From Aquilaria yunnanensis (lineage: Eukaryota; Streptophyta; Magnoliopsida; Malvales; Thymelaeaceae), in NCBI GenBank assembly GCA_039654915.1, contig CM077593.1, positions 114,005,413-114,069,412 of the forward strand: a stretch of 64,000 bases of DNA, in the 5' to 3' direction. Positions 2,646-58,706 of this stretch are shown in pieces. The notes below the pieces were generated by a model. It was given only the letters and a program-made list of their open reading frames with translations, was not told the origin of the DNA and made no database searches. Made by a program: the position numbers and the translations under genes. The stretch's first letter is position 1. Each line of letters begins with the position of its first letter.

Positions 2646-2776
2646 CACATGTATACATGGAAAAATTTGCAAAAGAGGTGATGATTATATTGTTTGATAT
2701 GAGTTAACATAAATTATGCATGTTGGCATTTTAGCACATTTGTGTTTTACAGTGCATTGATGGTGGAGATGTTGGA

Positions 2777-5700
2777 ATGAGTAAAGATGATGATAATGTT
2801 GTAAAGGATAAGGTTGAGATAGTTGAGCATGCAATGGAGATGGATGAAGAGGGGGAAAGTACTGATGGTGTGTCTAGGCAGGAAGAGAAAGAAGGTGAAG
2901 AAGAAAAGTTGCCTGTAAGGGGTTTGGCTCAGAAAGAGAGGCCTCACAGAGTGGTGAGGGTATTGGAAGAGATTGAGGCTAATGTGGCACAGTTGAAAAT
3001 CGATGTTAGAGAGTTGCGGACGGAGACAAGAGCTATGTGTGCAAACCAAGAGAGCATGAAATTGTTGATGGAGTAAATGGTAAAAAATGTTTCAGCAGTA
3101 ATGCTTTTGATGAGTAAGGGGCATGTTAAGGAAAATATGACTGACACACGTGCTTCAAACGTACCAAGTCCTCCAATGATGCTGTTGGAATGTGAAATAA
3201 GGGACGATGTGAATGTAACGAAGAAGGCAAAAGTTATGGGTGATAGGGTCGATGATGAGAAGGTGGAAGTAAAGGAAACTGGTGTAGGTGTGAAAGATGA
3301 TGTAGGGCTGAAATCACTTACCATGCGGTTGAGGAAGTGCGAAGAGGAGAAGGTGTGTTCTCCTAAAGAGGCTGGGCAACAACCGGAGAAGAAAGAGATA
3401 CTTGATTTTGCTGGGCAGAGTGCGAACATGGTTAAGTAGTTGTTCGCAAATACATGCATGAAGAAAGACTCTGCGGAAGAGGTAGAAAAAAGATATAGGC
3501 TTCCAGAAAAGCATTTACATTGTAAAAAAATGATCGCTTTTCACAAAAATGATATGTTTTCTATAAAAAATGATGGTTTTGTTAAAAAATGATTGTTTTT
3601 AATATTAATTGTCCAGAAACTTGATATTGTTTCATATTGATAGGTTAAGAACACAGGAGTTGGCAATATAAGGAGAAGGTATGAACGACTACCAATGCCA
3701 TCCCGGTTAAAAAAATCTCTATATATGGCCATCTCAAATAAGGGGGCGCATAGTAAGCTAGTTTACGATGGATCTTATTTGCGTACCCTGAAGAAATTCT
3801 TTGGATGAGAAAAGTAAAAAAATCTTGTAGTATGCGTTTGACCACATGTCAAACTCGAAATGGTAAATAATGTTTAATTACATTATAAGTTATGTTACAT
3901 GGGAATGGTTATTAGTTAACTAAACTTGTTGTTTATATGTTATAGTAAGGCACTTTGCATGTCACCATATGGGTTATTCCTTGAAAGGATGGAGCTTATA
4001 AAATACTTATGGCTTGATGTGTGGTTGAATGAAGGACTTATAAACTATTGGGTTGACGTGTTTGTTGGGTTTCGGGAGCTAAACAGTGCAGTGGAATTTA
4101 ACCGAAACCCTCTACGATCCAAGTGAAACGGGGTAAACTGGGTGTTCGAAAATTTTCATACCTAATTTTCGGTTGAGATCTCTCACTCAACTGTAGAGTC
4201 AAATTACAAAACCTGAACAGTTGACGTGTTCAAGCTCTCTATGGTATCCACACGAGCCTCTCGGGATCACAACGCTTCCACCACGTCCCGGCAGAGGCGT
4301 TTCTCTTACGCTCGCAGTGCTAGCTTGCGTCCTTCAAGAAATTGCAAGAGAAGAGTGCGGCTGTCCTTTTGGGAGGCTAGGGCAAGGAGACCTACGAATT
4401 TCTCACTAAAAGTTGTATTTATAGTGAGACTCAACTTCCATGCCTAATGAGTTTCAAAGCCCTAATCCAATTAGGCTTTAATGTTGGGCTTAATATTGGC
4501 TCAACTCTTGGGCCCATTATTAATACGAAATTAAAGTGAAACCATAACCCAAATAATTAGCCCATGCACTCTAATGATCCAAATAGCTCTATGTGTGTGA
4601 CCCAATAGGCTCTTACCACACTGGCAATGATCATAAATCACATTTATAATCATAAGTAATGAGCGGTGTCTAGCAACACATCATTGCTACCTAAGTGACA
4701 AGATTGTCGGTGATTCGACTAAACCTTTATGATCATCACCGATATATGTCATTGTCCCTCTGTCCAAGATATCAAGACTAAGCATGAGACATGGAATGTG
4801 TCACTCTCGTATAGCTCAATCTTTGGTTTCTTGATTACCGAGTAGACCAACTTAAACTGATGACATTGATATCACTCCCGTTACATAGGAGGGACAAATC
4901 TCATCTTGATCATACAAATCCCTCCGCATGATATGTGGCATACCCAATGACCTCCTTCAAGTTCACTTAGTTACGAGCAACAAAGGAAAATATCAAAGTA
5001 TGTGACTCACATGTAGGGAACATTGATGATTTTAGGTCGAAGGACTACATATACCATGATCACTAAGAGAATCACTTATGACACTCATATAACGATCCAT
5101 GTAGTGTTCTCATGGTGGGTCGGTCCAATACACAAGTTCTCTAACTTGTACCCATATGTAGACTACACATCTCATATTAGTCTTCACATATGCTAGTCAT
5201 TATGTATTATTGCAACCCGCTCCACAATAATACTAGATCGGGGACATTTGAGACTATCATTATTCTAGGGTTACAATTATGTTTATTACGTTATGCAGAA
5301 ACAAAACAACAAACATAATTGCTGGATTAATGCCTTAATAAAATATCATAACTCAATGTGCAAAAAATACAATCATCTCATGATTGGCTTTTTGGGCACA
5401 ACACTAACAATGTTATGTGCAAGAGAACGATGCAAAATGGTGAATGCGGAGAATAGGTTCTTCCCAATTGATTTTGTGGTAAGTGTTTCTCATTATCTAG
5501 ATTCAATATCATAATCCATATTTGTGTAATCTTATGTTTCACGTTACTATCTACAGAGAGCAGCAAAATATGGGCCCAATAATGCTATTGACAAGTGTGC
5601 ACAACATCGATGGGCAGAGACTGATGTAAAAGATATCAAAGACATAAGGAATGTGAGCATAAAAACTGTGAGTACAGAATAAGTAATTATGTAGCCTTTT

Positions 5701-37789: not shown

Positions 37790-38977
37790 TGAATAAAATC
37801 TAATAAATTTATGTATTTACTACTCCTCATAAAGTAAAATTATAATAATTTGAATCCAATTTAAAGCTTGGTGTATTTACTACTCATTATTGTAATTTTT
37901 AAGGACATGGGTAATCTCTTGAGAAATTGAGAGAAACTTAAAAGGCTGCATATTGGCTAGCTACTAGTTACTATTATTTTTTTAAGAGCTAATAATTTTA
38001 TAAGAACGAGAGTAAAACTTAAATAGTTTTTATATTTACTGCTCTTTATTATTGTTTTATGGGAGTGGGTAATTTTATAAGATGTCAATAAAACTTAAAA
38101 TTTTGTATATTTGCTACTTATTATGTTATTTTTATAAAAATTCTTAATTTCATAACATTGCGAGGAAAACTTAAGAGATTTGTGTATTTAATACTTCTTA
38201 TATTATAGTTATGAAAGTTCATAAGTTCGTAAAAATTAAGGTAAAACTTATTAGGTTTACGTGTTATTTTTATTGTTTTTATTGTTATGAAAGTTAGTAA
38301 TTTAGAAAGACTAAGAGTAAAAGTTAAAAAGGTGATGTATTTACTACTATTTATTATTATTTTTTGAAAGTAAGAGTAAGAGTAAAAATTAAAATTTTGA
38401 ATTTATAAAAATTAAAAATATTTGTATTTACTGCTCATTATTATTATTTGTATGAGTGTAAGTAATTTTGTAAGATTTTAAGTAAACAATAAAAAGCTTT
38501 TGTATTTACTGCTTCTTAATGTAATTTATGAAAATTTAAAATTCTATGAGAACGAGAGTAAAACTTAAGAGATTTTTGTAGTTATTGTTCATTATATTAT
38601 TTTTATAAAAGTCTAAAATTTGATAAGAATGAAAATAAAAGTTAACAGTTTGTGGATTTACTAATCTCTATTATTATTTGTTGAAAAGTTAGTACTTCAT
38701 AAGTGTTAGAGTAAAAGCTTGAAAAAGTGTTGTAATTACTACTCTTTGTTATTGCTTTTTTTAAACTTAGTAAGTTTGTAACACAAAGAGTAAAAGTTAA
38801 AAGGTTTGAGTATTACTACTTAATTATTATTATAATTTGTATGGGAGTGGGTAATTTTGTAAGATTTTAGTAAAAGTTAAGAAGTTTATGTATTTACTGC
38901 TTGTTATGATTTTTTTGTGAAAGTTTGTAATTTTATAAAAATGATAGTAAAAGTTAAAGGTTTGTGTGTTTAGTAGT
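37790..38977. repeat. Degenerate ~77-bp tandem repeat array (left part)
   Basis: Units follow the pattern tgtatttactactc-ttattatt, then tatgaaagttagtaatttt, ataagaacgagagtaaaact and taaaaggttt. Starts are near 38032, 38106, 38182, 38336, 38427, 38503, 38580, 38655, 38733, 38811 and 38888. The array is interrupted at 38978 by the retrotransposon and resumes at 58707-58915. It is heavily mutated and AT-rich. Confidence 0.75.
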
Positions 38978-41774
38978 TGTTGACACCCAATTTCGTCCGA
39001 CCCTTTTTAAAAAAATAAAAAAAAATTTAATTAAAAATTAAAAAAATAATAATTAAAAAAAATATTAAATTAATTATTATATAAATAGAAAATTAAATTA
39101 AATAGTTTTGGAGGAGAGGCATTTTGTTAAGTTAATATCTATGTGTGTATATCCAAAAAAATTAAAATTAAAAATTAAAAAGAATTAATTATTATTATTA
39201 TTAATTAATTATTATTATTACTGAAAAAAATTTTAATTAAGTTAATTAGTTTAAAATACATTTTTTTTATAAGGGTTTAGTTAAAAATGATATATGTGTG
39301 TATATATGCATGTATGAAATACAAAAGAAAACTCCATAAAAAATGACAAAATTGAAAAGTTTAGAGTAAAAATGACAAAATTAAGAAGTTTTGGGAAAAT
39401 TTGACAAAATTTGAAAGTTCCAGGAGCATTTGGTAATTTTTCGCATCAATTTTGGGCCAAACAGACGGTTCTTGCTCAAATTAACAGAAAAAGACAAAAT
39501 TGTCTCAATCAGAAGTTTCAGGAACATCCCTAAAGTCAAAGAGATGTAAATGACTGAAACTGTCATTTTACCAAATTAAGAGATAAGTCTGTTTTTAATT
39601 AAATTTCAATTTTTTTTTAATCATAGAAATTAAGGCCTCCTTCCCCTATAAATAGGGGTGGAAATATGTGAATAAACCAAGAAAAAAATGAAGATTAGTG
39701 CCGTTTTAAAAAAAAGAGAAAACTGTAGAAAAATCCCTAGTCTCTGCCTCTTCACTCAAAAAAAAAAAAAACTGAACTTTCATTCCTAAACTCTTTTCGC
39801 CGTTAGCCTCTCTCGCCATTTTCGCACGTTTTCGCGCCTGTCACCCTACGTACCTCCCTCCTCCGCTCCAGCAGCCGTCTCGCCGCTTCCGCCGCACGCC
39901 GACGCCGTCTCCCCCTCTCCTCGCCTTCCACCGAAATTCTCTCTCTCTCACCGTTGTTCTCCTCTCTCTTTCTTCCCCCTCCCCTTGCTACCGACGCCAT
40001 CTCCCCCTCCTCGCCGCTGTCGTCATCTCTCCCAGACGCTCCAGCCGCCGTTTCGCCACCTCCATCGCTCGCCGGCGCCACTCTTCCTTCTCTCCTCCGC
40101 TCTCTTCTCTTCCCTTCTTTTTTTTCCATTCTTCTCCTCCGTCCACCCCTAGCTCGCTGCCCACGCCATCGCCGCTTCCAAACTTCCCCTTGCTCGTCGT
40201 CGTCGTCACCTCTCCTGCACGCCTTCGCCGCCGCTTCTATCTCCCGTCGTCCAGGAAGTTTAAAATTTTACTCTTTAGGTAAAATTCTGTTTTAATCATT
40301 CATCTTTTTATATTCTTTCATTCAAGTCACTAACCTTTTTATTTTGCAAAATTAACACTAACTTTTGTGTGATTTATTTATTTGTTCTTATTTTTTTAAT
40401 TTTTTTTTTCATGGAAGGTTATACCTCCTAATTTTTAGTGGATGACCAAAAAGTCCCACTTTTCTTTATTTATTTAATTTCTGTAATTATTTAATTTATG
40501 CACTTTTATTTTTATGGAAGGTTATACCTCCTACTTTTTATTTTTTTTAGTGGATGGCCAAAAAGCCCCATTTTTCCTTATTTATTTAATTTCTGTAATT
40601 ATTTAATTATGCACTTTTATTTTTTTATGGAAGGTTATATCTCCTACCTTTTTATTTTTTAAGTGGATGGTAAAAAGCTCCACTTTTTCTTCATTTATTT
40701 AATTTCCTGTAATTTACTTTATGCAATTATGTGGATGATTAAACTTATTTCACTTATTTCACTTTTAGCCATAAAAGATAATAAATAAATAAATAAAATA
40801 AGAAATAAGATTTTTTTTATGTGAATAATTAACCTTATCTTACTTATTTTTAGTGCTAATCAAGAATCCATTTTTTACAACAAAGCCCCCATCCTTTATT
40901 ATTTCGGAACACATATATTTAAAAAAAAACAATAAAAAAAGTTAACCTTTTATTCCTTTTATTAAAAATAAAAATTAAAAAAAATCATAACCAGACAATA
41001 AAAAAAATCAATTTTTAAGTATATATTTTAAAAAAAAATGTTTCATCAAACAAAAAAGAAAAGAATAAGAAAGAAAAGAGTAAAAAGAAAAAGAAGAAAA
41101 AAAAAGAAAATAAAAAAATAAGAAAATAAAAATAAAAGAACAAAAAAAAACAAAATAATTTTTTTTTTAAAAAAAAATTAAAATTAGTTAACATTAAGGT
41201 TGTTAAAAATCCAAAAGTTCACAAAAATTTATGACAAATTAAGAATTAAATTTTTTTTAAGTTAAAATCCATGTTCGAGTAATCCTATAGGATTCATGGC
41301 TTGGAGAAAACATAAATTTTTAAATGAATAAAATTAAGTATCAGAATAAAATTCATATTTTGATAATTCGGCAGAATTTATGATATGGATTATTAATTAA
41401 TAATTAACTAAAATTTCGTTAAATTCCGTGTCTGGGTGATTTGACAGAATCCATGGTTCAGAAATATCAAGTTTGTTATAAAATTGTGCAAATTAATTAT
41501 CAAGATTTTTTTAAATCCACATTAATTCATTAATCCACATCTGGACGATTTCAGTTAAAATTTCTAGTTTTGAAAATTAACTGAATTTATTGAAAAGCAA
41601 AGCAAAACAAAATTGAAATCAACTAAGGTATCAATTTTTGGGCGCTATAACAAAGTTGTTTTAGCATAACCGTACTTCCGAACCTTTGAACTCTCGTAGA
41701 CCATTTTTAGATATCCAATCGACCTGAGCGAAAACCGATTGGTCGCATCTCCCAAAATCACGCACGTTGTCACA
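38978..41774 (+). repeat. 5' LTR of the Tat-type element
   Basis: It runs from TGTTGACACCCAATTTCGTC to CACGTTGTCACA. A promoter TATA box CTATAAATAGGGG lies at about 39648. Beyond it a GC-rich stretch (39790-40260) gives misleading open frames on both strands, and then comes very AT-rich DNA with internal duplications (for example 'ggaaggttatacctcctactttttatttttt' units at 40410, 40515 and 40628). An A-rich tract lies at 41040-41170. Confidence 0.95.
39648..39660 (+). promoter_or_regulatory. LTR promoter TATA box
   Basis: CTATAAATAGGGG in the 5' LTR; the equivalent in the 3' LTR is atataaatagggg (about 56616). Transcription would start about 30 bp downstream, before the GC-rich leader. Confidence 0.65.
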
Positions 41775-42603: not shown

Positions 42604-44097
42604 GGTAAAATTGGACCTCAACACCGATATTCAACTCGGCTCCAAACAAGACAAGTGGCAGAGCAAACTGAAGGTCGTCTCATAGATATGGAGTCCAAGA
42701 TAGAAAGTATGGTCAAACAAATGAGACAATTGATGGAGCTAATCAAGGGGAAAGCAACTCAAGTTCCCATCAAAGAAGCACAAGATCCCACTTATCCTCT
42801 GAGATTCACCCCACAACGAGTCTCAGTTCAAAAAAATCTGTTTCAGGAATCAGGTCCGTCCGCTAGCATTCACCTGAAACAAGACACTGTATATGAAGAG
42901 AAGAAAACACTACCAAAGGAAGAAGGAGAATCTCAAAAGTTCGAAACAATAGAGAAGAGACTTCAGGCCATTGAATGAGGCACTATATTCGGATCTCTCT
43001 CAGTGGATGACCTCTACTTAGTGCCAGATGTCGTAATCCCCTCAGACTTTAAGGTGCCAGACTTTGTGAAATATGACGGAACAAGTGATCCCATCACTCA
43101 CATCACGTTGTTTCTAAGAAAACTACAACCACTCACAAAAGACGAAAATGTGTGGATTGCACTTTTTCAAGAAAGCCTTACAAAATCAGCATTACAGTGG
43201 TATCTAAGTCAAGGTCCAAGAAACATTAAAACATGGAATGACCTTGCTCAGGCCTTCATCAACAATTACAAACATGTTATGGACTTGGCCCCAGATCGCC
43301 AAACTCTCCAGAGTATGGAAAAGAAAAGGCAAGAAACCTTCAAGGAATACGCTTAAAGGTGGAGGGACTTAGCTGCACAAGTTTAGCCACCCATGACGGA
43401 AAGAGAAATGGTTACTTTATTTGTTCAAACACTAAAGTATCCATATTACGACAAACTCATTGGCAATTCGGCAACCAATTTCTCAGACATTGTCATGTCT
43501 GGAGAATGAATTAAGCATGAGATTAGAACCGGAAAAATCATTGAGTCCTTTAATGATGCCATGAAAAGAGGAGAACCATCCAGAAGAAAGGATGATGAAG
43601 TACAACAAATAGGACGCGGAAGAGGGATTCCCCTCGTGGGTACTGTGGCTACCGGGCCTCGCCTATCCTATTCTGCCAATAGGCCCAATGATTATCCTCC
43701 CAATAGGCCTAACAATTATCCTCTCAACAGGCCTAATCAATTACGGCCACCTGTTCTGACCCCTACAGTACCCACACAAAGACCAAGAGAAGTCTTTGCG
43801 CCAATTCCTATGACTTACACTGAGTTGTATCCAAAACTCATTGAAAGTCAACTTATCCGTTCAATTCCTACAAAGCCATTCGAACCCCCGTATCCAAGGT
43901 GGTATGACCCCAACATAACTTGCCCATATCATGAGGGCGTTGCAGGCCATGGCTTGAAAAATTGCATAACATTGAAACGTATAGTCCAACAATTAATTGA
44001 TTCAAAGTGGTTGGACTTTTTCGATGAACCAAACGTCACTCACAATCCTTTGCCGCCTCATCAAGCTAAATCAGTCAATATGATAGAAGAACACTAG
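42604..44097 (+). pseudogene. gag: gag of the Tat-type element
   Basis: A single reading frame opens with YSTRLQTRQVAEQTEGRLID and a coiled-coil-like stretch. It goes on to the Retrotrans_gag core: FKVPDFVKYDGTSDPITHI, LTKSALQWYLSQGP, TWNDLAQAFINNYKHVMDLA. It ends with the Tat zinc-knuckle-like segment CPYHEGVAGHGLKNCITLK. The start codon is not clear; ATG is absent and a GTG lies at 42655. In-frame stops at about 42976, 43354 and 43384 and at 43506-43511 (E* before IKHEI) interrupt it. The same frame continues, apart from a TAG at 44095, through the linker into protease. Confidence 0.88.
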
Positions 44098-44937
44098 CTG
44101 ATAAAGAAGTCAGTCAACGATATCATAACCCTTCTTAAGCATGTATATTCATGCCTTCTGAAAGAAGGGATCATTATTCGGAAGTCTTCTTTTAAACATG
44201 AAGAAGTCGAAGATGAGGGATGGTACGATTTTTATGACAGTAAGAGTCATTCTATCCAGGAATGCTTAGAATTCCGTGAGAATCTATAAAGACTCATAGA
44301 CTCATCCCAACTCATCATTTTTATGTCAGATAAAGATGATGATGTGAATGTGATCATTAAAGAACAAGAAGTCAATGCTATGCCAAGACCACTAGTCATA
44401 CCAATTTCAAAACCTACTCTTAAGCCTTTAAGAATTCAAGTCCCGAGGCCATTCCCCTACAAATCAGACAAAACTGTTCCATGGAGCTATGATTACACTT
44501 CCACCATCACATCAACTCCATTAGAAGTTGGGAGCATGACTAAAAGTTGTCGGTGTTATTCTTCGGAGCAAATGAACAAGCTCCAACAAGATAAGAACGG
44601 TACAGACCCAACAAGTGGACCTCTTGATACAAATACATCCAAAGAGCAAGAGATGCCTCGAGCGGTAACAGATGAATAAGCTACTGAGTTTCTCAAACTC
44701 ATAAAGTAAAGCGAGTATAGCATAGTGGAGCAATTAAACCGCCTGCCAGCAAAGATTTCCATACTTTCATTACTCTTAAACTCTGATGCTCATCGAGAAG
44801 CCCTCCTCAAAGTCTTAAATAAGGCATATGTTGAGCAAGATATTTTTGTGAATAATTTTGACCACCTCGTCAACAACATCACGGCATAGAATCTCATCAC
44901 ATTCACTGACGATGAGATACCAGCAGAAGGAAAGGGT
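44098..44937 (+). pseudogene. Tat polyprotein linker between gag and protease
   Basis: Same frame as gag. It includes the Tat-typical DEGWYDFYDSKSHSIQECLE block and VPWSYDYTSTITSTPLEVG, then a low-complexity acidic/polar stretch. Stops lie at about 44287, 44677, 44707 and 44887. No catalytic motif. Confidence 0.7.
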
Positions 44938-45552
44938 CACTCTAAGGCTCTACATATTTCGGTTAAGTACAAAGATCGAATTATAGCTAGAGTTCTTATT
45001 GATAATGGATCAGCTCTAAATGTAATGCCACTTGAAACCTTACACAAGCTTGGTATAGACCCATCATACCTCAACAATAGTCATATCATCGTTCGAGCGT
45101 TTGATGGGATGAAGAGAGATGTTGTTGGAGAAATAGAGCTGCTAATAGGGATTGGCCCTCGTGTCTTCCACATCACATTCCAAGTTATGGATATTAATCC
45201 TTCTTATACTTGTCTGTTGGGAAGACCATGGATCCATATGGCAGGAGCAATCCTCTCTTCATTACATCAAAAACTAAAATTCATCATTGAAGGAAAACTA
45301 ATAACAGTCTTTGCTGAAGAAGACATTCTGCTATCTCGACCTGCGGATGCTCAGTATGTCGAGGTCAATGAAGATATACCTGATTGCTCCTTCAGGTCTT
45401 TTGAAATCGTTAATGCTACCTATGTCGGCGAATATGGAGAAGAACCCGTGCCTAGCGTCTCTAAAACAAGTCGCATGATCGCCAAACTCATGATGAAAGG
45501 AGGATACTCACCAGGGTTAGGTCCCAAAGCCATTGAAAATCTCCACAAATGA
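44938..45552 (+). pseudogene. Aspartic protease of the Tat-type element
   Basis: The protease processes the Gag-Pol polyprotein. The catalytic region reads RVLIDNGSALNVMPLETL, where DNGS (family DxGS/DSGS/DTGA type) carries the active-site Asp. The flap-side partner motif is TCLLGRPWIHMAGA. The downstream segment SKTSRMIAKLMMKGGYSPGL is a G-patch-like tail typical of Tat proteins. At about 45545 the frame shifts by one: the text continues in the next frame (KYGLGFTLTRQDKMKAI) toward reverse transcriptase. Confidence 0.85.
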
Positions 45553-47770: not shown

Positions 47771-48190
47771 TAGGAAGTCTCTGAAGATGATGAAACATGG
47801 AAAATGGCATTCGATGGAGCATCTAATGCTTTGGGACAAGGGATTGGAGCTATACTCATCTCTTCAAGCGGAGAGCAGTTTCCTCTCACAGCAAAAATTA
47901 CATTTCATTGTACCAACAATATAGTAGAATATGAGGCATGTGCTATGGGACTCCAAATGTCACTGGAATTGAAAGTATGAGATCTCTGAGTTTATGGGAA
48001 TTTCGCATTAATCATATATCAAATCAATGGAGAATCGGAGACAAGGGATTCAAAATTGATCCCTTACCAAAAGCTCATACTAGACTTGGCTCGAAAATTT
48101 AATAGTATAAGCTTCCATCATCTTCCAAGGGAAGATAATCAAATTCCGAACGCTTTAGCTACTTTAGCTGCTATGTACAAGATAAGCGAC
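47771..48190 (+). pseudogene. Second, archaeal-type RNase H (aRNH) of the Tat-type element
   Basis: WKMAFDGASNALGQGIGAIL, then NNIVEYEACAMGLQMSLEL and HHLPREDNQIPNALATLAAM. This extra RNase H is the hallmark of the Tat lineage. The first Asp (FDGAS), the Glu (EYEAC) and the late Asp (REDNQIPNA) are present. The segment before LIIYQ reads VYGNFA, where active relatives have VYGDSx, so a catalytic Asp appears changed to Asn. Two stops lie around 47980-47990. Confidence 0.88.
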
Positions 48191-49525
48191 CCTGAGCATA
48201 CTCCTGTGTTCGAAATGAAAATAATAGATTCCCCAGCTTATTGCATGAGCATCGAAGAAGAATTGGATGGGAAACTGTGGTATCACGATATCAAGAAATA
48301 CCTCAAAGAACGAGTGTATCCGACAGAAGTATCAGAAAATGACAAGAAATTTTTACGAAGACTGTCAATGGGTTTTCTTTTAAACCTAGACATACTTTAT
48401 AAGAAAACCCCAGACTCGATGCTACTTCGCTGTGTAGATGCTCATGAAGCACGAAAAATCATGGAAGAAGTTCATTCTGGAATGTGTGGAGCACACACTA
48501 GTGGTCATACCATGACAAGACAAATAATGAGGGCTGGCTACTATTGGCTCACATTGGAAAGTGATTGCATCAATCATGTAAGAAAATGTCACAAATGTCA
48601 AATATATGCCAACAAGATCCAGGCTCCACCTGCTCCTCTTAATGTAACAGCAATACCTTGGCCTTTTGCCATGTGGGGAATTGACGTCATTGGAGCCATT
48701 ACCCCCAAAGCTTCTAATGGTCACAAATTCATCCTAGTGGCAATAGACTACTTCACTAAATGGGTAGAAGCTGTGTCTTATGCAAATGTAACTCAAAAAG
48801 TGGTATGTCGGTTCATTCAGAAAGAAATCATTTGTCGCTATGGGCTACCAGAGTGTATCATCTCAGACAATGCCACGAACTTGAACAATGCAATAATGCA
48901 AACTTTGTGCCAACAGTTCAAGATCAAGCATCTCAATTCGGCACCTTATCGACCGATGATGAATGGTGCAGTAGAAGCGGCCAATAAAAATATCAAGAGA
49001 ATTATTGAAAAGATGATCGTCACTTACAAGGACTAGCATGAGATGTTACCTTTTGCACTACATGCTTATAGAACTTCTACCCGTACTTCTACTGAAGCAA
49101 CACCTTTTTCTCTGGTATATGGTATGGAGGCTGTATTGCCCATTGAAGTTGAAATTCCTTCATTAAGGGTACTAATGGATACTCAATTAAGAGAAGCAGA
49201 ATGGGTCAAGGCTAGATACGAGCAATTAAACCTAATTGATGAAAGAAGAATGATAGCCCTCTGCCATGGGCAGCTTTATCAAAGGAGGATGATTCGTGCT
49301 TACAATAAAAAGGTTCGCCCACGGCAATTTCACGAGGGTGACATAGTGCTCAAGAAAATTCTACCCATTCAGCATGATTCTAGAGGAAAATGGACACCAA
49401 ATTATGATGGGCCATATGTCGTGAAGAAAGCATTTTCAGGAGGGGCTCTAATTCTGACAGAAATGGATGGACGAGAGTTACCAAAGCCAGTAAATTCAGA
49501 TTCAGTAAAGAAATACTTTGCATAA
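48191..49525 (+). pseudogene. Integrase of the Tat-type element
   Basis: Integrase inserts the cDNA into chromosomes. It has an HHCC zinc finger (HSGMCGAHTSGHTM ... CHKCQIY) followed by the DDE core: GIDVIGAITPKASNGHKFIL (first Asp), CIISDNATNLNNAIMQ (second Asp) and MNGAVEAANKNIKRIIEKM (Glu). The C-terminal part reads VRPRQFHEGDIVLKKILPIQ and NYDGPYVVKKAFSGGALILT, the GPY/F-type module. One TAG (49034) replaces the Trp of KDWHE-type sequences. Otherwise it is open to the TAA at 49523. Confidence 0.93.
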
Positions 49526-50790
49526 TGAAGAAATTTTCGGACAGAAGGGAAGAAGTTGATACAGGGTTACCAAAGTTTATTTGATCAAAGTTGTTAAAGA
49601 AAGCGTTCTTCCCTCACACTTTCATTGTTATTCATCTGTACCCAAGACTTTTATATTCTCTTACCTATAAATAAAAAGCCAATTCTCTTTAGCTTTCCTT
49701 TGATTCTCACGTTCAACTTTTATATTCCATTGTTAAAAAAAAATGATGAAGTCATTTCTATCCAGTTCTTTTCCTTCAAATCTCACATTCCTACTAGCCT
49801 TAAGTGTGCAATAAATTGTGACATTTGTAGGAAGAATAGAAATATTTAAAACTCAGAAAAAGCAAAGACCGTAGATTACTTTGATAAGCTTTGTGAATTA
49901 AAATAGGTAAGATTGAGGTCCTGCTTTGCGAACGGCACAGAACATATGCTAACAAAGAAGAAGGAGTAACAAATCTTCGGGAGATAGCCTTGGTAGTTGC
50001 CTGGATGATCGCTTCAGAAGCCTTAGCATGATCATGTCAGCAAGAAAGAATCATACTCACGAATATTTCAACAGGGACAATTATGTAGAGAGGCATAAAG
50101 TGTGAGGCGGGCGAACATTAAAGAAATTGAGGCCAAAATTCAAGAACAAGTCAAGGAAAGAGGATTTTGAAAAGAGTTGGGCTTTCAAGGCAATGGACAA
50201 GAGTTGGGAAGCATAAAGAGATTCAATGATAGTCCAAGAAGGCAATCACAAAGAGGATCCAGTAAAACAAAGACATGAAGGACTAAATCCATCCAAAAAT
50301 TCAAAAAAAAAAAAAAGAACCATCAGTTACACATGTTCTGCATTCATGCATTTCACGTAATGCATGCATGGCCTTTGCATAACAGGAACTAAATGGGAAG
50401 CACATCCACGGCATAGTTACAGCATTATAAGCCGCGATTTCAATAACATCAGCTCTTACCAGTCTACCACTGGATGCACAGCTAATACGCTGGACCCAGC
50501 CCCATCAGGGATTCAAGGATAAAGTAGACAATATTGTCAAAAACCTGGCAATCGTTTCAATAATCGAGGCTACACCTGGAAGAACAGGATTGACGCTAGC
50601 TTAGTAGTATCCAAGATAAAAGATAGTTATGGTCAAGGATAAGACAGACGTCAAGAAATATTGTCATTGATAATTTCTCAAAAGCTGGCAATGGATTCAA
50701 TAATCGAGGACTGGATCGACGTCAGTTCGATGGAATATCAAATATAAGAAATATCTATGACATCAAAATAAAGTAGGATCCACTTTTCCG
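49526..50790 (+). other. Post-integrase spacer of the Tat-type element
   Basis: No recognised gene. At about 50530-50750 a ~130-bp stretch is duplicated imperfectly, with aatattgtca...ctggcaatcgtttcaataatcgagg followed by a second aatattgtca...gctggcaatggattcaataatcgagg. The short frame 49625-49849 is not supported. Confidence 0.5.
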
Positions 50791-50794
50791 GTTA

Positions 50795-51626
50795 AGTGGC
50801 GGATACGGTACTCCGTGACTCTCAAGTCGGTTCTCTCAGTTGCCCATAATAACTGATTCCTTCTTCCCTTCTTTCTTTTACTTCCCGCTAGAAAATGGAT
50901 CCTACTCTTTCTCCCTTGTGAAAATATTTTCCTTCTCTCCCAATGAACATTCTCAAAAAGATCTATTGAGTTCGCTGTGAACGATTAAGAGTTTTAATAC
51001 ACAAAGGAATCCCTGAAGATGTACGGTGCTTAATCGAAGCTAAGGTTCGTCTGGCAGGCGAAGCCCCAGATGCATTTACGTCTCACATGCCTGGCATAGG
51101 CAAAAGCTCGTATGCCAAAAAGTGAAGAGCGAAAAGGTTACAAGTCTGTCATAAATGTGGTCGATGGACTTGTAATACTAAATGTCGTTCTTTAGGAATG
51201 ATCTCCAATAATCGAGAAGATAAAATACGGTTCATCAAGAATGACCTGAGTAAGGATTCGTTGGATTATATCCGATTGACTTTTGAGACGCATTCTTGTG
51301 GATCAGTACAACGCGAACTTCTTGGTTTATGGAGTGTTTTTCATGAAGAACGAGAGTGTTACAGTCCCGGGAATCTGACTTTAAAAGACCCTATTTGCCA
51401 GTTTGTAAGAAAACTGGATGGGAAGCAAATCCCCGACTCATAAAAGGCGTTGAAGCCGTTACTGGACGTAAAACCAGTGGAAGATGTGAGCCACAATCAC
51501 AATCACTGTACATACAATTTGTCATATTTGAAAATTTACATTTTTCTTTTGAAAATAATGTACTTGCTCCCGTAAGCGTAATTAATACATTATTCTTTCA
51601 TCGCTATAAATGCGTGTTCTTCTTCC
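50795..51626 (+). pseudogene. Accessory ORF cassette, copy 1 (unknown Cys-rich protein)
   Basis: First of three tandem copies of a ~0.8-kb cassette. It begins ccggttaagtggcggatacggtactccgtgac, then a leader and an ATG at about 50895 (MDPTLS), but frameshifts follow at once. The readable part has RFIKNDLSKDSLDYIRLTFE, SCGSVQRELLGLWSVFHEE and LKDPICQFVRKLDGKQ. It shares with copy 2 a TGA right after the AYAKK/SYAKK position. No function is recognised. There is no TATA-like box upstream of this copy. Confidence 0.6.
51604..51610 (+). promoter_or_regulatory. TATA-like box before accessory ORF copy 2
   Basis: CTATAAA in tcatcgctataaatgcgtg, 128 bp before the ATG at 51732. The same context recurs before copy 3 (52420) and before the LOG copy (53411). 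Promoter function is inferred from position and repetition. Confidence 0.4.
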
Positions 51627-52440
51627 CGATTAAGTAGCGGATACGGTACTCCGTGACTCTCATAGTCGGTTATTTCAGTTTCCTACAATAACTGATTTCT
51701 TCCTCTCTTCTCTCAAATTCTTCTCTCATCAATGGATTCTACTCTTTCCGCCCTGCGAAAGTACTTTCCTTCCTTCCCAATAAACGTTCTTAAAAGGATT
51801 TACCAAGCTAGATGTGAAAGAATCAGAGTTTTTATACACAAGGGCATTCCTGATGATGTGCGGTGGTTAATTGAAGCTAAGGTCCGTTCGGCTGGTGAAG
51901 TTTCAGATGCATTTATGCCCCGTATGCCCTGCTTAGGTAAAAGCGCTTATGCCAAAAAATGAAGAGCAAAGAGGCTAAGTGTCTGTCATAAATGTGGACG
52001 ACGGAATTGTGATACTAAATGTCGCTCTTTAGGATACATCTCAAAAAATTGTGAAGATAAAAGAAAATTCATTAAGAATGGCTTGCGTAAGGAATCTCTG
52101 GAAGATATCCGAGAGACTCTTGAAACGCATTCTTGTGAAAGAGTGCAAGGTGAAATTATCGGTTTATGGTGGACTTACCATAAAGAACGATACTGTTACA
52201 GTCTTGGGAATTTGACTTTAAATGACCCTGTTTGCCAGCTTGTAAGAAAACTGGATGAGAAGTAAATCCCCGACTTATAGAAGCCGTTACTGGACGTAAA
52301 ATCAGTGGAAGATGTGAGCCACAGTCACAATTACTGTACATAAAGTTGTCATTTGTCTTTTCTTTTGACAATAATGTACTTGCTTCTGTAAGCGTAATAA
52401 ACACGTTATCCTTTCATCGCTATAAATACGTGTTCTTCTT
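51627..52440 (+). pseudogene. Accessory ORF cassette, copy 2 (unknown Cys-rich protein)
   Basis: The ATG at 51732 opens MDSTLSALRKYFPSFPINVL, then IHKGIPDDVRWLIEAKVRSA, GEVSDAFMPRMPCLGKSAYA and KK followed by TGA. Beyond the TGA the same frame continues with VCHKCGRRNCDTKCRS (a four-Cys CxxC-x4-C-x3-C cluster, possibly zinc-binding), RKFIKNGLRKESLEDIRETL, CERVQGEIIGLWWTYHKER and LTLNDPVCQLVRKLDEK, then TAA at 52263. A complete protein would be about 190-200 residues. I recognise no family. It could be a Tat-specific accessory protein or a captured host sequence. Confidence 0.65.
52420..52426 (+). promoter_or_regulatory. TATA-like box before accessory ORF copy 3
   Basis: CTATAAA in tcatcgctataaatacgtg, about 116 bp before the ATG at 52536; same context as the boxes at 51604 and 53411. 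Confidence 0.4.
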
Positions 52441-53215
52441 TTTGGATACGGTACTCCGTGACTCTCAAAGTCAGTTATTTTTGTTTCTTACAATCACTAA
52501 TTTCTTCATTTTTTCTCTTAAATGCCTCCTTCATCAATGGAGTCTTCTCTTTCCGCCCTATGAAAGTATTTTCCTTCCCTCCCAATAAATGTTCTTAAAA
52601 AGATTTATCAAGCTAGATATGAACGATTTAGAGTATTTATGCACAAAGGCATTCCTGATAATGTGCGGTGGCTAATCGAAGCTAAAGTTCGGTCGGCTGG
52701 TGAAGTTCCAGATGCATTCTTCCCCCGTATGCCCGGCTTTGGTAAAAGCACTTATGCCAAAAAGAGAAGAGCAAGAAGGCTAGGCGTCTGTCATAATTGT
52801 GGATGGTGGATTTACGGCACTAAATGTCGTTCTTCAGGGATAATCACCAGAAATCGTGAAGATAGAAGAAAATTCATTAAGAATGGCCTGCGTAAGGAAT
52901 CTCTGGAGGATATTCTCTTGAAGTGCACTCTTGTGGAATGGTGCAATTTGAGATTTTCGGTTTATGGATGACTTTCCAAAAAGAACAAGATCGTTACAGT
53001 CTTGGAAATCTGACTTTAAACGACCCTGTTTGCCAGTTTGTAAGAAAACTAGAAGGGATGCAAATCGCCAATTCATAGAAGGCATTGAAGCCGTTACTGG
53101 ACGTAAAGCCAGTGGAAGACGTGAACCAAAGTCACAACTACTGTACATGCTAGCTGTCGCTTTTGAAAATTTTCCTTCTCTTCCAAGAATAATGTACCTA
53201 TTTCTGACGTGAGCC
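52441..53215 (+). pseudogene. Accessory ORF cassette, copy 3 (unknown Cys-rich protein)
   Basis: The ATG at about 52536 (MESSLSAL) is followed by an early stop, then MHKGIPDNVRWLIEAKVRSA, GEVPDAFFPRMPGFGKSTYA and KKRRARRLGVCHNCGWW. Here the codon after KK is AGA, so this copy lacks the TGA shared by copies 1 and 2 and is ancestral at that site. A ~7-bp loss in the stretch matching DIRETLETHSC shifts the frame (reads DILLKCTLVEW). Later text (YSLGNLTLNDPVCQFVRKLE) is in another frame. Confidence 0.65.
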
Positions 53216-53390
53216 ACAGTCACGACTACTGTACATGCTAGTTGTCGCTTTTGAAAATTTTCCTTCTCTTCCAAAAAATAATGTACCCATTCCTGACGTG
53301 AGCCATAGTCATGACTACTGTGTATAGCTGTCATTTTGGAAATTTTCCTCCTCTTCCGACAATAATGTATCTACTCTTAAAAATATAATT
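53119..53390 (+). repeat. ~88-bp tandem repeat, three copies, between accessory ORF 3 and LOG
   Basis: Units start gacgtgarccamagtca at about 53119, 53208 and 53296, each with ctactgt, tagctgtc / tagttgtc, ggaaattttcc / gaaaattttcc and aataatgtac / aataatgtat. The first unit is the tail of cassette copy 3, so only the tail was amplified here. Confidence 0.75.
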
Positions 53391-53410
53391 ATTACATTAT
53401 CTCTTCATCT

Positions 53411-53417
53411 CTATAAA
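53411..53417 (+). promoter_or_regulatory. TATA-like box before the LOG copy
   Basis: CTATAAA within attacattatctcttcatctctataaatac. This resembles the sequence before accessory copies 2 and 3 (attaatacattattctttcatcgctataaat) and places the LOG copy where a fourth cassette would begin. The LOG ATG is 49 bp downstream. Confidence 0.4.
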
Positions 53418-53459
53418 TACATCATCTTTTCTTCATTTCTCACAAGGTTAAGGAAATGA

Positions 53460-54089
53460 ATGGAGAAAACCTCAACTCGTAAATTTTGAAGTATTTGTGT
53501 ATTTTCTGGGGCTTTTCCTGGAAAAAATGAATAGTACTTAAAGGCAGCCAACCATTTGGGTAGAGTATTAGCTGAGCGAAAAATACATTTAGTCTATGGA
53601 GGAGGTAGTGTCGGATTAATGGGAGGTGTAGCATCAGTAGCATCTTTAGGAGGAAGTCAAGTTCTGGGCATTATCCCTGGATCTTTGAAGTTTATTTCTA
53701 GGGGCACGATTGGAGAAGAATTAGTGATTAAAAATCTGCAAGAGCGTTTGTTACAAATGCTTTTTAATGTTGAAGCTTTTATTGCTCTACCAGGTGGTTT
53801 TAGCACATTGGGAGAAGTCTTTCAAATTGCTTCCATGGCCCAACTTAATTTGCATAAGAAACCCATTGGGCTGTTGAATGTTAACAATTTCTTTACAGGT
53901 CTGATAGCTTTTGTGGACTACGCTATGCAGAAGAATTTTATATCAAGAGTAGCACGACGAATCCTAATATCCGCAACAACTGCTGAAGAATTGCTAGATA
54001 AAATGCAAGCTTTTGTTCCTGAACCAGATCCAGCGATGATCCAGATAGACTGGACACGACAGTCTTTCCTGACCAGTTTCATCCCATAA
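53460..54089 (+). pseudogene. LOG: LONELY GUY (LOG) cytokinin-activating enzyme, intron-less copy inside the retrotransposon
   Basis: LOG enzymes release active cytokinin bases from riboside 5'-monophosphates. One frame runs from the ATG at 53460 to TAA at 54089, 209 codons, the usual LOG length. It is broken only by TGA (53487) and TAG (53532). It reads SICVFSGAFPGKNE, YLKAANHLGRVLAERKIHLV, YGGGSVGLMGGVASV, QVLGIIPGSLKF, LQERLLQML, AFIALPGGFSTLGEVFQIAS and HKKPIGLLNVNNFF. The LOG motif PGGxGTxxE is PGGFSTLGE: the Glu is kept and one Gly is Ser. The Arg of the QxR helix is present. The Cys of the usual VFCGS is Ser. Plant LOG genes have several introns and this one has none, so it looks like a copied mRNA. 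It lies between integrase and the polypurine tract, in the element's sense. Confidence 0.9.
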
Positions 54090-54640
54090 TTGTCCTTTAC
54101 CCGGCCTGTTGAAGCATTGTGGAAACAGAAGCGATCCGATCTGTTCTTCTTGTCCTTTAGTTTTATTATCAACATTTTTTTTTGTGTTTTTGGTTTTTCT
54201 TTTCAGAGAATTTCTTTTTTTTTTTATCTTGTACGATAGTTTGGTTCATTCTGATATTAAAACCATAGGACAAAGCCTTTAGTTTGGAATGGCTGAGTAA
54301 GGAGTAATTTTGTTTACTCTTGAGACCCATCCTATTAGGTCCATTAGTCAGGACATTTTTGGGTAGCTAAGCTTCAACCTTATTTGGATGACATATCTCA
54401 CAAGGGAATTTATATTTTCTGAAGAAAATATTAGATGAAACCTTGGATATTGATTCCAAACATCCATACCCTTTACATAATTTGTCTGTTTTATTTCACA
54501 TCATCAAGATTCACTCATCTCATGGAAGTTTAAATTCTTGCACTTGCCTATTATGAAAATTCACACTTCCAATGAAACCATTCCAACTTCAATTGCCTTC
54601 ATACAAATTTCGCTTGAGGTACTCAAAAAGGAGAAAAGGG
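54090..54640 (+). other. Region after LOG, before the minisatellite
   Basis: No gene. Contains T-rich stretches (54166-54225). It could include a former 3' untranslated region of the captured LOG transcript, but no poly(A) tract or target duplication marks an end. Confidence 0.45.
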
Positions 54641-54644
54641 TTTT

Positions 54645-55860
54645 CCTTCATCAATCAATTTTCCTTCAACGGTAGGACAGCTCCTATCGCCGAGGTTTTA
54701 AGGATGGAACCTTTGCCTCGAAAATCAATTAATCAATTTTCCTTCAATGTTAGGACTGCTCCTATCGCCGAGGTTTTAAGGATGAAACCTTTGCCTCGAA
54801 ATCAATCAATCAATTTTCCTTCAACGGTAGGACTGCTCCTATCGCCGGGGTTTTAAGGATGGAATATTTGCTTCGAAATCAATCAATTTTCTTTCAACGG
54901 TAGAACTGCTCCTATTGCCGAGGTTTTAAAGATGGAACCTTTGCCTCGAAATCAATCAATTTTCCTTCAACGGTAGGATTGCTCCTATCGCCGAGGTTTT
55001 AAGGATGGAACCTTTGCCTCGAAATCAATCAATTTTCTTTCAACGGTAGGACTGCTCCTATCGCCGAAGTTTTAATGATGGAACCTTTGCCTCGAAATCA
55101 ATCAATTTTCCTTCAACGGTAGGACTGCTCCTATCGCCGAGGTTTTAAGGATGAAACTTTTGCCTCGAAATCAATCAATCAATTTTCCTTTAACGGTAGG
55201 ACTGCTCCTATTGCCGGGGTTTTAAGGATGGAACATTTGCCTCGAAATCAATTAATTTTCCTTCAATGGTAGGAGTGCTCCTATTGCCAAGGTTTTAAAG
55301 ATGGAATCTTTGCCTCGAAATTAATCAATTTTCCTTCAATGGTAGGACTGCTCCTATCGCCGAGGTTTTAAGGATGGAACCTTTGTCTCGAAATCAATCA
55401 ATTTTCCTTCAATGGTAGGACTGCTCCTATCGCCGAGGTTTTAAGGATGGAACCTTTGCCTCGAAATCAATCAATTTTCCTTCAACGGTAGGATTGCTTT
55501 TATCGCCGAGGTTTTAAGGATGGAACCTTTACCTCAAAATCAATCAATTTTCCTTCAACGGTAGGATTGCTCCTATCACTAAGGTTTTAAGGATGGAACC
55601 TTTGCCTCGAAATCAATCAATTTTCCTTCAACGGTAGAACTGCTCTTATCGCCGAGGTTTTAAGGATGAAACCTTTGCCTCGAAACCAATCAATCAATTT
55701 TCCTTCAACGATAGGACAACTCCTATCGCTGAGGTTCTAAGGAAAGTTCCCTAACCTTAATCTCTATCAATCAATCAACTTTTCTTCAAATGGTAGGAAG
55801 GTTCCTATCGTAGAGGTTCTAAGGAGGATTCATTAACCTCAGGATTTAGGCGGCAAGAAG
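54645..55860 (+). repeat. ~74-bp minisatellite, 16 copies, in the 3' untranslated region of the element
   Basis: The unit is ttttccttcaacggtaggac followed by tgctcctatcgccgaggttt and taaggatggaacctttgcctcgaaatcaatcaa. Copies begin near 54657, 54737, 54812, 54885, 54961, 55033, 55107, 55184, 55259, 55331, 55404, 55478, 55551, 55623, 55698 and 55786. Some have an extra atcaatc (+4). Tandem repeats before the polypurine tract are a known habit of Tat/Ogre elements and a source of satellite DNA. Confidence 0.92.
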
Positions 55861-55932: not shown

Positions 55933-55945
55933 AAAGGGGGGCAGC
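55933..55945 (+). promoter_or_regulatory. Polypurine tract
   Basis: AAAGGGGGGCAGC immediately before the 3' LTR: the primer for plus-strand cDNA synthesis. Confidence 0.8.
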
Positions 55946-58701
55946 TGTTGACACCCAATTTCGTCTGACCTTTTTTTAAAAAAATAAAAAAAAATTAATT
56001 AAAAATTTTAAAAATAATAATTAAAAAAAATATTAATTAATTATTATACAAAGAGAAAATTAAATTAAATAGTTTTGGGGGAGGGGCATTTTGTTAAGTT
56101 AATATCTATGTGTGTATATCCAAAAAAATTAAAATTAAAAATTAAAAAAAATTAATTATTATTATTATTAATTAATTATTATTATTACTGAAAAAAATTT
56201 TAATTAAGTTAATTAGTTTAAAATAAAATTTTTTTTTATAAGGGTTTAGTTAAAAATGATATATGTGTGTATATATGTATGTATGAAATACAAAAGAAAA
56301 CTCCATAAAAAATTGACAAAATTGAAAAGTTTGGAGTAAAAATGACAAAATTAAGAAGTTTTGGAAAAATTTGACAAAATCTGAAAGTTCCAGGAGCATT
56401 TGGTAATTTTTCACATCAATTTTGGGCCAAACAGACAGTTCTGGCTCAAATTGACAGAAAAAGATAAAATTGTCTCAATCAGAAGTTTCAGGAACATCCC
56501 CAAAGTCAAAGAGATGTAAAGGACTGAAACTGTCATTTTACCAAATTAAGAGATAAGTCTGTTTTTAATTAAATTTCAATTTTTTTTAATCATAGAAATT
56601 AAGGCCTCCTTCCCATATAAATAGGGGTGGAAATATGTGAAGAAACCAAGAAAAAAATGAAGATTAGTGCCGTTTTAAAAAAAAGAAAAAACTGTAGAAA
56701 AGTCCCTAGCCTCTGCCTCTTCACTCAAAAAAAAAAAACTGAACTTTCATTCCTAAACTCTTTTCGTCGTTAGCCTCTCTCGCCGTTTTCGCTCGTTTTC
56801 GCGCCTGCCACCCTCCGTACCTCCCTCCTCCGTTCCAGCCGCTGTCTCGCCACTTCCATTGCACGCCGACGCCGTCTCCCCCACTCCTCGCCTTCCGCCG
56901 AAATTCTCTCTTTTTCACCGTTGTTCTACTCTCTCTTTCTTCCCCCCTCCTCTTGCTGCCGATGCCGTCTCCCCCTCCTTGCTGCCGTCGTCATCTCTCC
57001 CAGACGCTCCAGCCGCCGTTTCACCACCTCCGTCGCTCGCCGACGCCGCTCCTCCTTCTCTCCTCCACTCTCTTCTCTACCCTTCTTTTTTTTTTTCCGT
57101 TCTTTTCCTCCGTCCACCCCCAGCTCGCTGCCGACGCCATCGCTGCCTCCAGAGTTCCCCTTGCTCGCCGTCGCTGTTGCTTCTATCTCCCGTCGCCCAG
57201 GAAGTTTAAAATTGTACTCTTTAGGTAAAATTCTGTTTTAATCCTTCATCTTTTTATATTCTTTCATTCAAGTCACTAACCTTTTTATTTTTCAGAATTA
57301 ACACTAACTTTTGTGTGATTTATTTATTTGTTCTTATTTTTTTTTTATTTTTTTTTTCATGGAAGGTTATACCTCTTAATTTTTAGTGGATGACCAAAAA
57401 GTCCCACTTTTCTTTATTTATTTAATTTCTGTAATTATTTAATTTATACACTTTTATTTTTATGGAAGGTTATACCTTCTACTTTTTATTTTTTTTTAGT
57501 GGATGGCCAAAAAGCCCCACTTTTCCTTATTTATTTAATTTCTGAAATTATTTAATTATGCACTTTTATTTTTTTATGGAAGGTTATACCTCCTACCTTT
57601 TTATTTTTTAAGTGGATGGTAAAAAGCCCCACTTTTTCTTCATTTATTTAATTTCCTGTAATTTACTTTATGCAATTATGTGGATGATTAAACTTATTTC
57701 ACTTTTAGCCATAAAAGATAATAAATAAATAAAAAAAATCAGAAATAAGATTTTTTTTATGTGAATAATTAACCTTATCTCACTTATTTTTAGTGCTAAT
57801 CAAGAATCCATTTTTTACAACAAAGCCCCTATCCTTTATTATTTTGGAACACATATATTTAAAAAAAACAATAAAAACGTTAACCTTTTATTCCTTTTAT
57901 TAAAAATAAAAATTAAAAAAATCATAACCAGACAATAAAAAAATCAATTTTTAAGTATATCTTTTTTAAAAAAAATGTTTCATCAAACAAAAAAGAAAAG
58001 AATAAGAAAGAAAAGAGTAAAAAGAAAAAGAAGAAAAAAAAAGAAAAGAACAAAATAAGAAAATAAAAATAAAAGAACAAAATAAATTTTTTTTTTAAAA
58101 AAATTAAAATTAGTTAACATTAAGGTTATTAAAAATCCAAAAGTTCACAAAAAATTATGACAAATTAAGAATTAAGTTTTTTTTAAAGTTAAAATCCATG
58201 TCCGGGTGATCCGTTAGGATTCATGGCTTGGAGAAAACATAAATTTTTAAATGAATAAAATTAAGTATCAGAATAAAATCCATATTCTGATAATTCGGCA
58301 GAATTTATGATATGGATTATTAATTAATAATTAACTAAAATTTCATTAAATTCCGTGTCCGGGTGATTCGACAAAATCCATAGTTTGGAAATATCAAGTT
58401 TGTTATAAAATTGCGCAAATTAATTATCAAGATTTTTTTAAATCCACATTAATTCATTAATCCACATCTAGACGATTTCAGTTAAAATTTCTAGTTTTGA
58501 AAATTAACTGAATTAATTGAAATGAAAAGCAAAACAAAATTGAAATCAACTAAGGTACCAATTTTTGGGCGCTATAACAAAGTTGTTTTAGCATAACCGT
58601 ACTCCCGAACCTTTGAACTCTCGCAGACCATTTTTAAATATCCAATCGACCTGAACGAAAACCGATTGATGGCGACTCCCGAAATCCCGCACGTTGCCAC
58701 A
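55946..58701 (+). repeat. 3' LTR of the Tat-type element
   Basis: Begins TGTTGACACCC and ends CACGTTGCCACA, colinear with the 5' LTR. Differences are scattered substitutions and homopolymer-length changes. The internal GC-rich stretch (56760-57200) again produces spurious open frames. Confidence 0.95.
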
Positions 58702-58706
58702 GTAGT

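Follow-up and report, generated by a model that had tools for sequence, protein, structure and literature searches.

A YgdH/LOG domain (LOG, LONELY GUY, is a cytokinin-activating enzyme) has been reported, in the available portion of PMC9289625, from the consensus sequences of Gypsy elements in two Citrus species and, when a looser filter is applied, in Populus; the paper calls this result 'in line with' Steinbauerova et al. 2011. LOG in plant Gypsy elements is thus already published and is not new; the statement in a first-pass annotation of the present locus that no Tat element with a LOG gene had been described is overtaken by the same source, at least for Gypsy elements in general. Extra ORFs are also carried by Tat elements, with a plant mobile domain in Ogre and Transposase_28 in Retand according to excerpts of PMC6317226 and PMC11963269. 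As far as its excerpted text goes, a 2019 survey of Tat extra ORFs counted frames of at least 250 codons; genes of 182 and 209 codons, as found here, therefore fall outside that survey. A nucleic-acid-binding protein of viral type (NABP), the second component of the locus, is unmentioned in the available parts of three extra-ORF reviews and surveys (PMC7264820, PMC6317226, PMC11963269), and no paper joining NABP and retrotransposons was among the best matches in the open-licence literature. A flexivirus replicase-like sequence has been described in cucumber (Chiba et al. 2011, in the part available).

The window, which is the whole 64,000 nt stretch of Aquilaria yunnanensis DNA analysed (contig CM077593.1, positions 114,005,413–114,069,412), contains a 5′ LTR at 38978–41774 and a 3′ LTR at 55946–58701, defined by alignment to each other and flanked by an exact target-site duplication, GTAGT, at 38973–38977 and 58702–58706. 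A polypurine tract is located at 55933–55945. The LTR pair, duplication and tract together identify an LTR retrotransposon, and all of its parts are on the + strand. Pfam matches occur in the order gag (Retrotrans_gag, 42979–43356, 1.5e-07), RNase H-like (RVT_3) and integrase (zinc-binding and core, 47990–49036 with RVT_3); aspartyl protease matches at 44890–45552 are below curated cut-offs, and reverse transcriptase lay outside the scan. The RVT_3 match is immediately before the integrase and does not separate types of RNase H. The integrase frame continues over 49037–49525, as indicated by position and by conservation in copies, with no Pfam family above cut-off. Tandem repeats with a unit of approximately 73 bases, apparent by self-repeat, are located at 54650–55844. 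The end of the integrase frame at 49525, the tract and the duplication are as the first-pass annotation had described them. The LTRs are 93.2 % identical (125 mismatches in 2814 aligned columns); thus, the window copy is not a fresh insertion.

Between the integrase and the repeats, translation of 53460–54089 gives a continuous frame of 209 codons, with stops at codon 10 (53487) and codon 25 (53532) in addition to the terminal stop. The open part, 53535–54089, matches Pfam Lysine_decarbox (PF03641) at 3.6e-27 (95.6 bits against a cut-off of 27) and AtLOG3 (2a33) at 7e-42. With this domain, a LOG fold and the catalytic residues Arg99 and Glu122, the product belongs to the LOG family. Translation, Pfam, the LTRs and the duplication thus bear out the broken LOG frame inside an LTR retrotransposon that had been proposed. 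The two stops fit decay of the element. Both had been described as one C-to-T or G-to-A step from sense codons; alignment with an intact relative does not bear out such an origin for both. An upstream ATG at 53456 overlaps the LOG start in another frame and would give a short upstream frame in the window copy.

Ordinary plant LOG genes have introns, and a continuous, intron-free frame is what a host LOG retrocopy inserted later by chance into one element would look like. The copies refute this. In a DNA search of the 842-Mb genome, the best 40 LOG copies scored, from 2416 first-look candidates, were all full length and comprised the window's own and 39 others at 94–96 % identity; chance is ruled out by these 39. 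In the 20 of the 39 for which flanks were examined (L009–L028), the third NABP gene lies upstream and the 73-base repeats downstream in every case, with the integrase end in 17 and the tract or LTR start in 17. The same neighbours in 20 of 20 copies, together with the many further copies, leave a later retrocopy insertion with a negligible probability, and this explanation was rejected. The first-pass annotation had named two findings that would count against its reading, an absence of LOG from other copies of the family and a LOG source of like structure and flanks outside the element; the 39 further copies contain LOG, and in the copies fetched the flanks are those of the element. Its view that the LOG travelled with the element therefore agrees with the shared neighbours and with the intact LOG copies found elsewhere. 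The capture of a LOG mRNA by template switching that it also proposed is hypothetical.

Of the 21 older copies, the window's included, 3 have an intact LOG, 2 are frameshifted and 16 carry one to three stops, one of these 16 also lacking the start. When rows are aligned to window columns, 4 of the 21 appear without a stop, since one frameshifted copy reads open. The codon-10 stop occurs in 7 of the 21 and the codon-25 stop in 2. With 18 of 21 older copies broken and a stop present in 7, broken copies may have been mobilized, or the site may have been hit repeatedly. A LOG protein search, whose ranking favours intact copies, scored 150 places of 3613 candidates, of which 148 were without a stop and approximately 90 had the same score. 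A fragment search with AtLOG3 scored 150 of 3327 candidates at 46–52 % identity, 147 of them without a stop; these matches look like element LOGs rather than the host's own genes, and NABP adjoins LOG in all four of the loci opened (L084–L087). A corresponding NABP search, likewise ranked by protein, scored 150 places of 10028 candidates, 131 without a stop in the matched stretch. One 11-kb region (G000 C2:12329308–12340187) has six NABP matches, several of them 806 bases apart, forming a longer tandem array of the unit. By the first-look counts (2416 to 3613 for LOG and 10028 for NABP, unconfirmed), candidate places in the genome may number in the thousands.

The first-pass annotation had included neither the TATA boxes described below nor NABP, of which three tandem genes are located between integrase and LOG. 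Copies 1 and 2, at 50895–51290 and 51732–52130, are decayed and were placed from the repeat unit and the copies; copy 3 is located at 52537–52990 (all three ends being approximate), with 52564–52971 open. This open part matches Viral_NABP at 27.5 bits against a curated cut-off of 23, and Carla_C4 at 26.1 against 20.9. Among 17 NABP relatives, 15 match Viral_NABP and 17 match Carla_C4 at E 0.01 or better, an E criterion rather than the per-family cut-offs. The likeness to viral proteins is at the level of Pfam, with a best value of 1.8e-08. No named virus is among the NABP relatives listed from single-sequence and profile searches, and none of 61 pattern matches in viral contigs was confirmed as an NABP relative. 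The fold model of NABP is poor (pLDDT 60.5), too poor for a structure search. In the one young copy examined for this unit (L043), four tandem NABP frames are each intact at 182 codons and are accompanied by an intact LOG.

A TATA box, CTATAAAT, precedes all three later cassette genes of the window, at 51604–51611 (NABP copy 2), 52420–52427 (NABP copy 3) and 53411–53418 (LOG, 49 bases upstream of the start); likewise, it precedes all four later genes of L043 (NABP copies 2–4 and LOG). The first cassette gene is without it. Apart from these, the motif scan found a single site, at 49665; the opposite strand has none, against an expectation of 0.17 per strand (300 resamplings, with at most 2). 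Short non-coding blocks also flank the NABP genes, GGATA..CGGTACTCCGTGACTC before and CCGTTACT.GACGTAAA.. after, located at 50801, 51639, 52444 and 51456 in the window, at 1514 and 2169 in L043, and at 1682 and 2360 in L046, a distant plant contig considered below; they are thus conserved between the source genome and that contig. These blocks may be RNA or promoter elements. An Rfam scan of window positions 49500–54700 gave no match at E 0.5 or better.

L043 (the same young copy as L031) was first picked by protein score. Further young copies were therefore sought with 517 bases of non-coding DNA from downstream of its LOG, so as to avoid the bias of a protein score. Of 1560 candidates, 40 copies were scored, L043 included; all are 100 % identical (rounded) to the query and 20 share the top score. 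LOG is intact in all 40 (37 together with L043, L033 and L035), in 23 DNA types and 11 proteins. The first-pass annotation had asked whether copies without the two stops exist; LOG is intact in 3 of 21 older and 40 of 40 young elements. This young copy, L043, has an LTR stretch identical at 762 of 762 positions (L045 compared with L044). The LOG and integrase end of L043 are approximately 94 % alike to those of the window, unlike the LTR: the LTR start of L043 (from 7817) has only a patchy match, of 71–80 %, to window 55946–58701, which looks like either rapid evolution of the LTR or its exchange among subfamilies.

Distinct point differences from L043 among the young LOGs are 35 nonsynonymous (N) and 40 synonymous (S) (p 1.4e-5 against a neutral N share of 0.705; this share, computed on a real copy, is 0.705 to 0.753). 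Variants shared between copies, counted by codon, are 2 N vs 12 S (p 2e-5 against 0.705), and singletons 26 N vs 24 S with 7 multiple changes. One copy, L062, has 52 differences from L043 in LOG, yet its downstream stretch is almost identical and the gene is still intact; it looks like a recombinant. Without it, singletons are 7 N vs 7 S and the shared variants are the same as before. An earlier dN/dS set (L031–L042), chosen by protein score and biased low, was replaced by one ranked by DNA (L033 and L035 are common to both). Against the 21 DNA-ranked older copies, the LOG of L031 has dN/dS of 0.12–0.31, with Fisher p <1e-3 in 21 of 21 comparisons, which are not independent and in which the older copies also hold neutral changes gained since insertion. 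Six NABP paralogue pairs within L043 give 0.19–0.40. Constraint within the older group is weak: shared variants are 25 N, 18 S and 5 stop for LOG, 32 N, 19 S and 2 stop for NABP copy 3, and 11 N vs 14 S for a part of the integrase. LOG singletons among the older copies (78 N vs 32 S) look neutral, as expected after insertion.

LOG is therefore a conserved extra ORF, present in most copies and under coding constraint, among copies that were all found through LOG or its adjoining DNA. These data bear directly on whether LOG and NABP are passive passengers, swept in once and merely copied along. The 18 broken older copies, some with stops in common, and the weak constraint within the older group are what such passengers would give. 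Against this stand the 40 of 40 intact young LOGs, their 2 N vs 12 S shared variants, the dN/dS values between young and older LOGs and among NABP paralogues, and the joining of both parts in gene models of other orders. The passenger-only model is accordingly very improbable, and was rejected on copy number, position and constraint. With LOG still intact in the young copies, the extra genes are probably instruments by which the element acts on its host, and not a gene picked up by accident.

A model of a 91 %-identical relative (P0001; pLDDT 84.6) superimposes on AtLOG3 with a TM score of 0.94 by target length and 0.80 by query, at 1.5 Å. In the LOG of Corynebacterium glutamicum, the available text of PMC4979012 proposes Arg99 and Glu122 as catalytic, places Met96, Lys100 and Glu121 at the adenine site, and lines the prenyl pocket with Met96, His97, Lys100, Glu125 and Trp129. 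Among the best 120 relatives of the element LOG, 115 have Arg99 and 118 have Glu122; both residues are also kept in the element's own family, and the first-pass annotation had noted them in the window copy. Elsewhere in the pocket Met96 is kept in 101, His97 in 43, Glu121 in 112 and Trp129 in 113 of the 120, with Lys100 and Glu125 kept in 2 each. Of the 118 relatives with Lys100 replaced, 117 have Leu, Ile or Met instead, and of the 118 with Glu125 replaced, 112 have His or Gln. All ten positions compared are conserved in four canonical LOGs, two from plants and two from bacteria. L043 is without Met96, His97, Lys100, Glu121, Glu125 and Trp129, and so keeps none of the five prenyl-pocket residues.

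If the element simply carried a normal cytokinin-activating LOG, expressed copies would raise active cytokinin and favour dividing cells. This reading is consistent with the LOG fold, the motif PGGxGTxxE in 105 of the best 120 relatives, and the catalytic pair. In addition, a mycobacterial LOG with a different pocket is proposed to make other cytokinins (PMC4979012, in the part available), so LOG activity may survive a change of pocket. However, Lys100 and Glu125, which all four canonical LOGs have, are each replaced in nearly all of these relatives, and Met96, His97, Glu121 and Trp129 are also changed in the source plant's family. Three of three proteins score 91–123 bits against the 300-bit cut-off of the NCBI cytokinin LOG model, a prokaryote model used here with no canonical plant LOG as control. 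The changed side-chain pocket makes cytokinin doubtful as substrate, and an ordinary cytokinin-activating role is rather unlikely; given the loss of pocket residues, the protein is not assigned to the cytokinin-activating class, despite its LOG fold and catalytic pair. Of the mobile hormone-gene carrier suggested by the first-pass annotation, the carried LOG with its catalytic Arg and Glu stands, and the hormone is in doubt. Wheat LOGs with the same key residues differ in activity, according to the available portion of PMC11593424; residues therefore predict substrate poorly.

The LOG relatives number 5514, of which the best 120 were listed; 100 of these 120 are 215–218 residues long, and several genomes, for example those of Reevesia, Diplodiscus, Populus and Orobanche, contribute many rows. 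A LOG tree was built from 75 sequences: 67 of these 120 relatives, 4 own rows, AtLOG3, AtLOG8 and 2 bacterial. In it, the 71 candidate element-type rows cluster together (SH-aLRT 98, quick method), separate from AtLOG3 and AtLOG8. NABP relatives number 48 by single-sequence search; a profile search yields 836 with an E value of 10 or lower, the best 120 of which were listed. NABP and LOG parts occur together in gene models of Acer (P0165), Diplodiscus (P0167) and Orobanche (P0268), by Pfam, and of Citrus (P0161), by eye. Diplodiscus belongs to Malvales and Orobanche to Lamiales; Citrus and Acer are Sapindales. These models may be annotation joins of adjoining genes, and their presence in other orders suggests, from sequence, that the association is old. 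Two LOG/NABP pairs from the same source, P0007/P0172 (longest contig 8723 for each) and P0028/P0181 (4511), suggest shared contigs. Public genomes name some of the relatives as LOG, which may matter for annotation.

A second lineage is indicated by L046 (DAIEQH010000041.1), a contig of 3330 bases with an integrase 35 % identical to that of the window, presumably Athila-type by its motifs, followed by an intact NABP. The contig, assigned to a bacterial genome bin (Candidatus Nomurabacteria), looks like plant retrotransposon DNA and is evidently of plant origin. Over 746 bases, its NABP unit with flanks has 74 % identity to L043; LOG was not found in the remaining 983 bases. This fits a putative exchange of the NABP unit between element lineages. 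It is conceivable, though held at somewhat less than even confidence, that the whole is an ancient two-part counter-host cassette of tandem viral-type NABPs and a neofunctionalized LOG, with a promoter for each later gene, selected in rosid and asterid retrotransposons and swapped as a module between lineages.

The window copy is best explained as a decayed member of a recently active Tat-like LTR retrotransposon family, jointly with the reading of its extra genes as a host-interaction cassette. A cassette with a modified LOG, kept as it helps the element to spread, is probably a better account than a plain hormone carrier. Young family members carry tandem NABP genes and then one LOG-derived gene between integrase and 3′ LTR, and these genes would be transcribed from internal TATA promoters. 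Cysteine-rich proteins of flexiviruses are thought to blunt silencing; the basic, Cys-rich NABP could likewise bind nucleic acid and do the same. The LOG-derived enzyme may still cleave a nucleoside 5′-monophosphate through its Arg/Glu pair, with the changed pocket admitting nucleotides other than, or in addition to, those used by an ordinary LOG. Altered nucleotide use would then affect physiology in the cells where the element replicates, and the cassette would be retained because it aids the element's spread. A more specific role against host defence, in which LOG acts on a nucleotide-type signal of immunity or stress, by destroying or altering it, and NABP acts against RNA silencing, would suit the catalytic pair within a changed pocket, the viral-type neighbour and the constraint; argued from analogy alone, it is improbable. 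Should the host-interaction cassette work as proposed, some plant retrotransposons would carry host-manipulating genes of their own, of an RNA-virus protein type together with an enzyme derived from a hormone pathway. The replaced pocket residues are a clean biochemical prediction.

Overall, the observation is real, not unique and partly known. The window element resembles the Citrus and Populus elements in carrying a LOG domain in plant Gypsy; NABP, promoters, a selection test and the pocket change are unmentioned in the available portion of that account (PMC9289625). In Phalaenopsis, giant Gypsy elements likewise have an extra enzyme gene, but there the enzyme is an AlkB RNA demethylase and was assayed in vitro (PMC9289625, same portion). 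Tat elements such as Ogre and Retand also harbour both additional genes and tandem repeats on the stretch from pol to the 3′ LTR, but their extra ORFs encode other proteins and are antisense in Retand (excerpts of PMC6317226 and PMC11963269). Four points are new to the author: the joining of NABP and LOG in a cassette, the likely promoters within it, its constraint in a family that is active, and the altered pocket. NABP copy 3 has a Pfam likeness, above curated cut-offs, to the nucleic-acid-binding and cysteine-rich proteins of flexiviruses (PF05515, PF01623); the plant family differs in being mostly of approximately 182 residues, tandem here, and inside a retrotransposon. Finally, the element LOG has the fold, the PGGxGTxxE motif and the catalytic Arg and Glu of AtLOG3 and AtLOG8, but differs from both in being carried by an element and in the replacement of Lys100 and Glu125 in its pocket.
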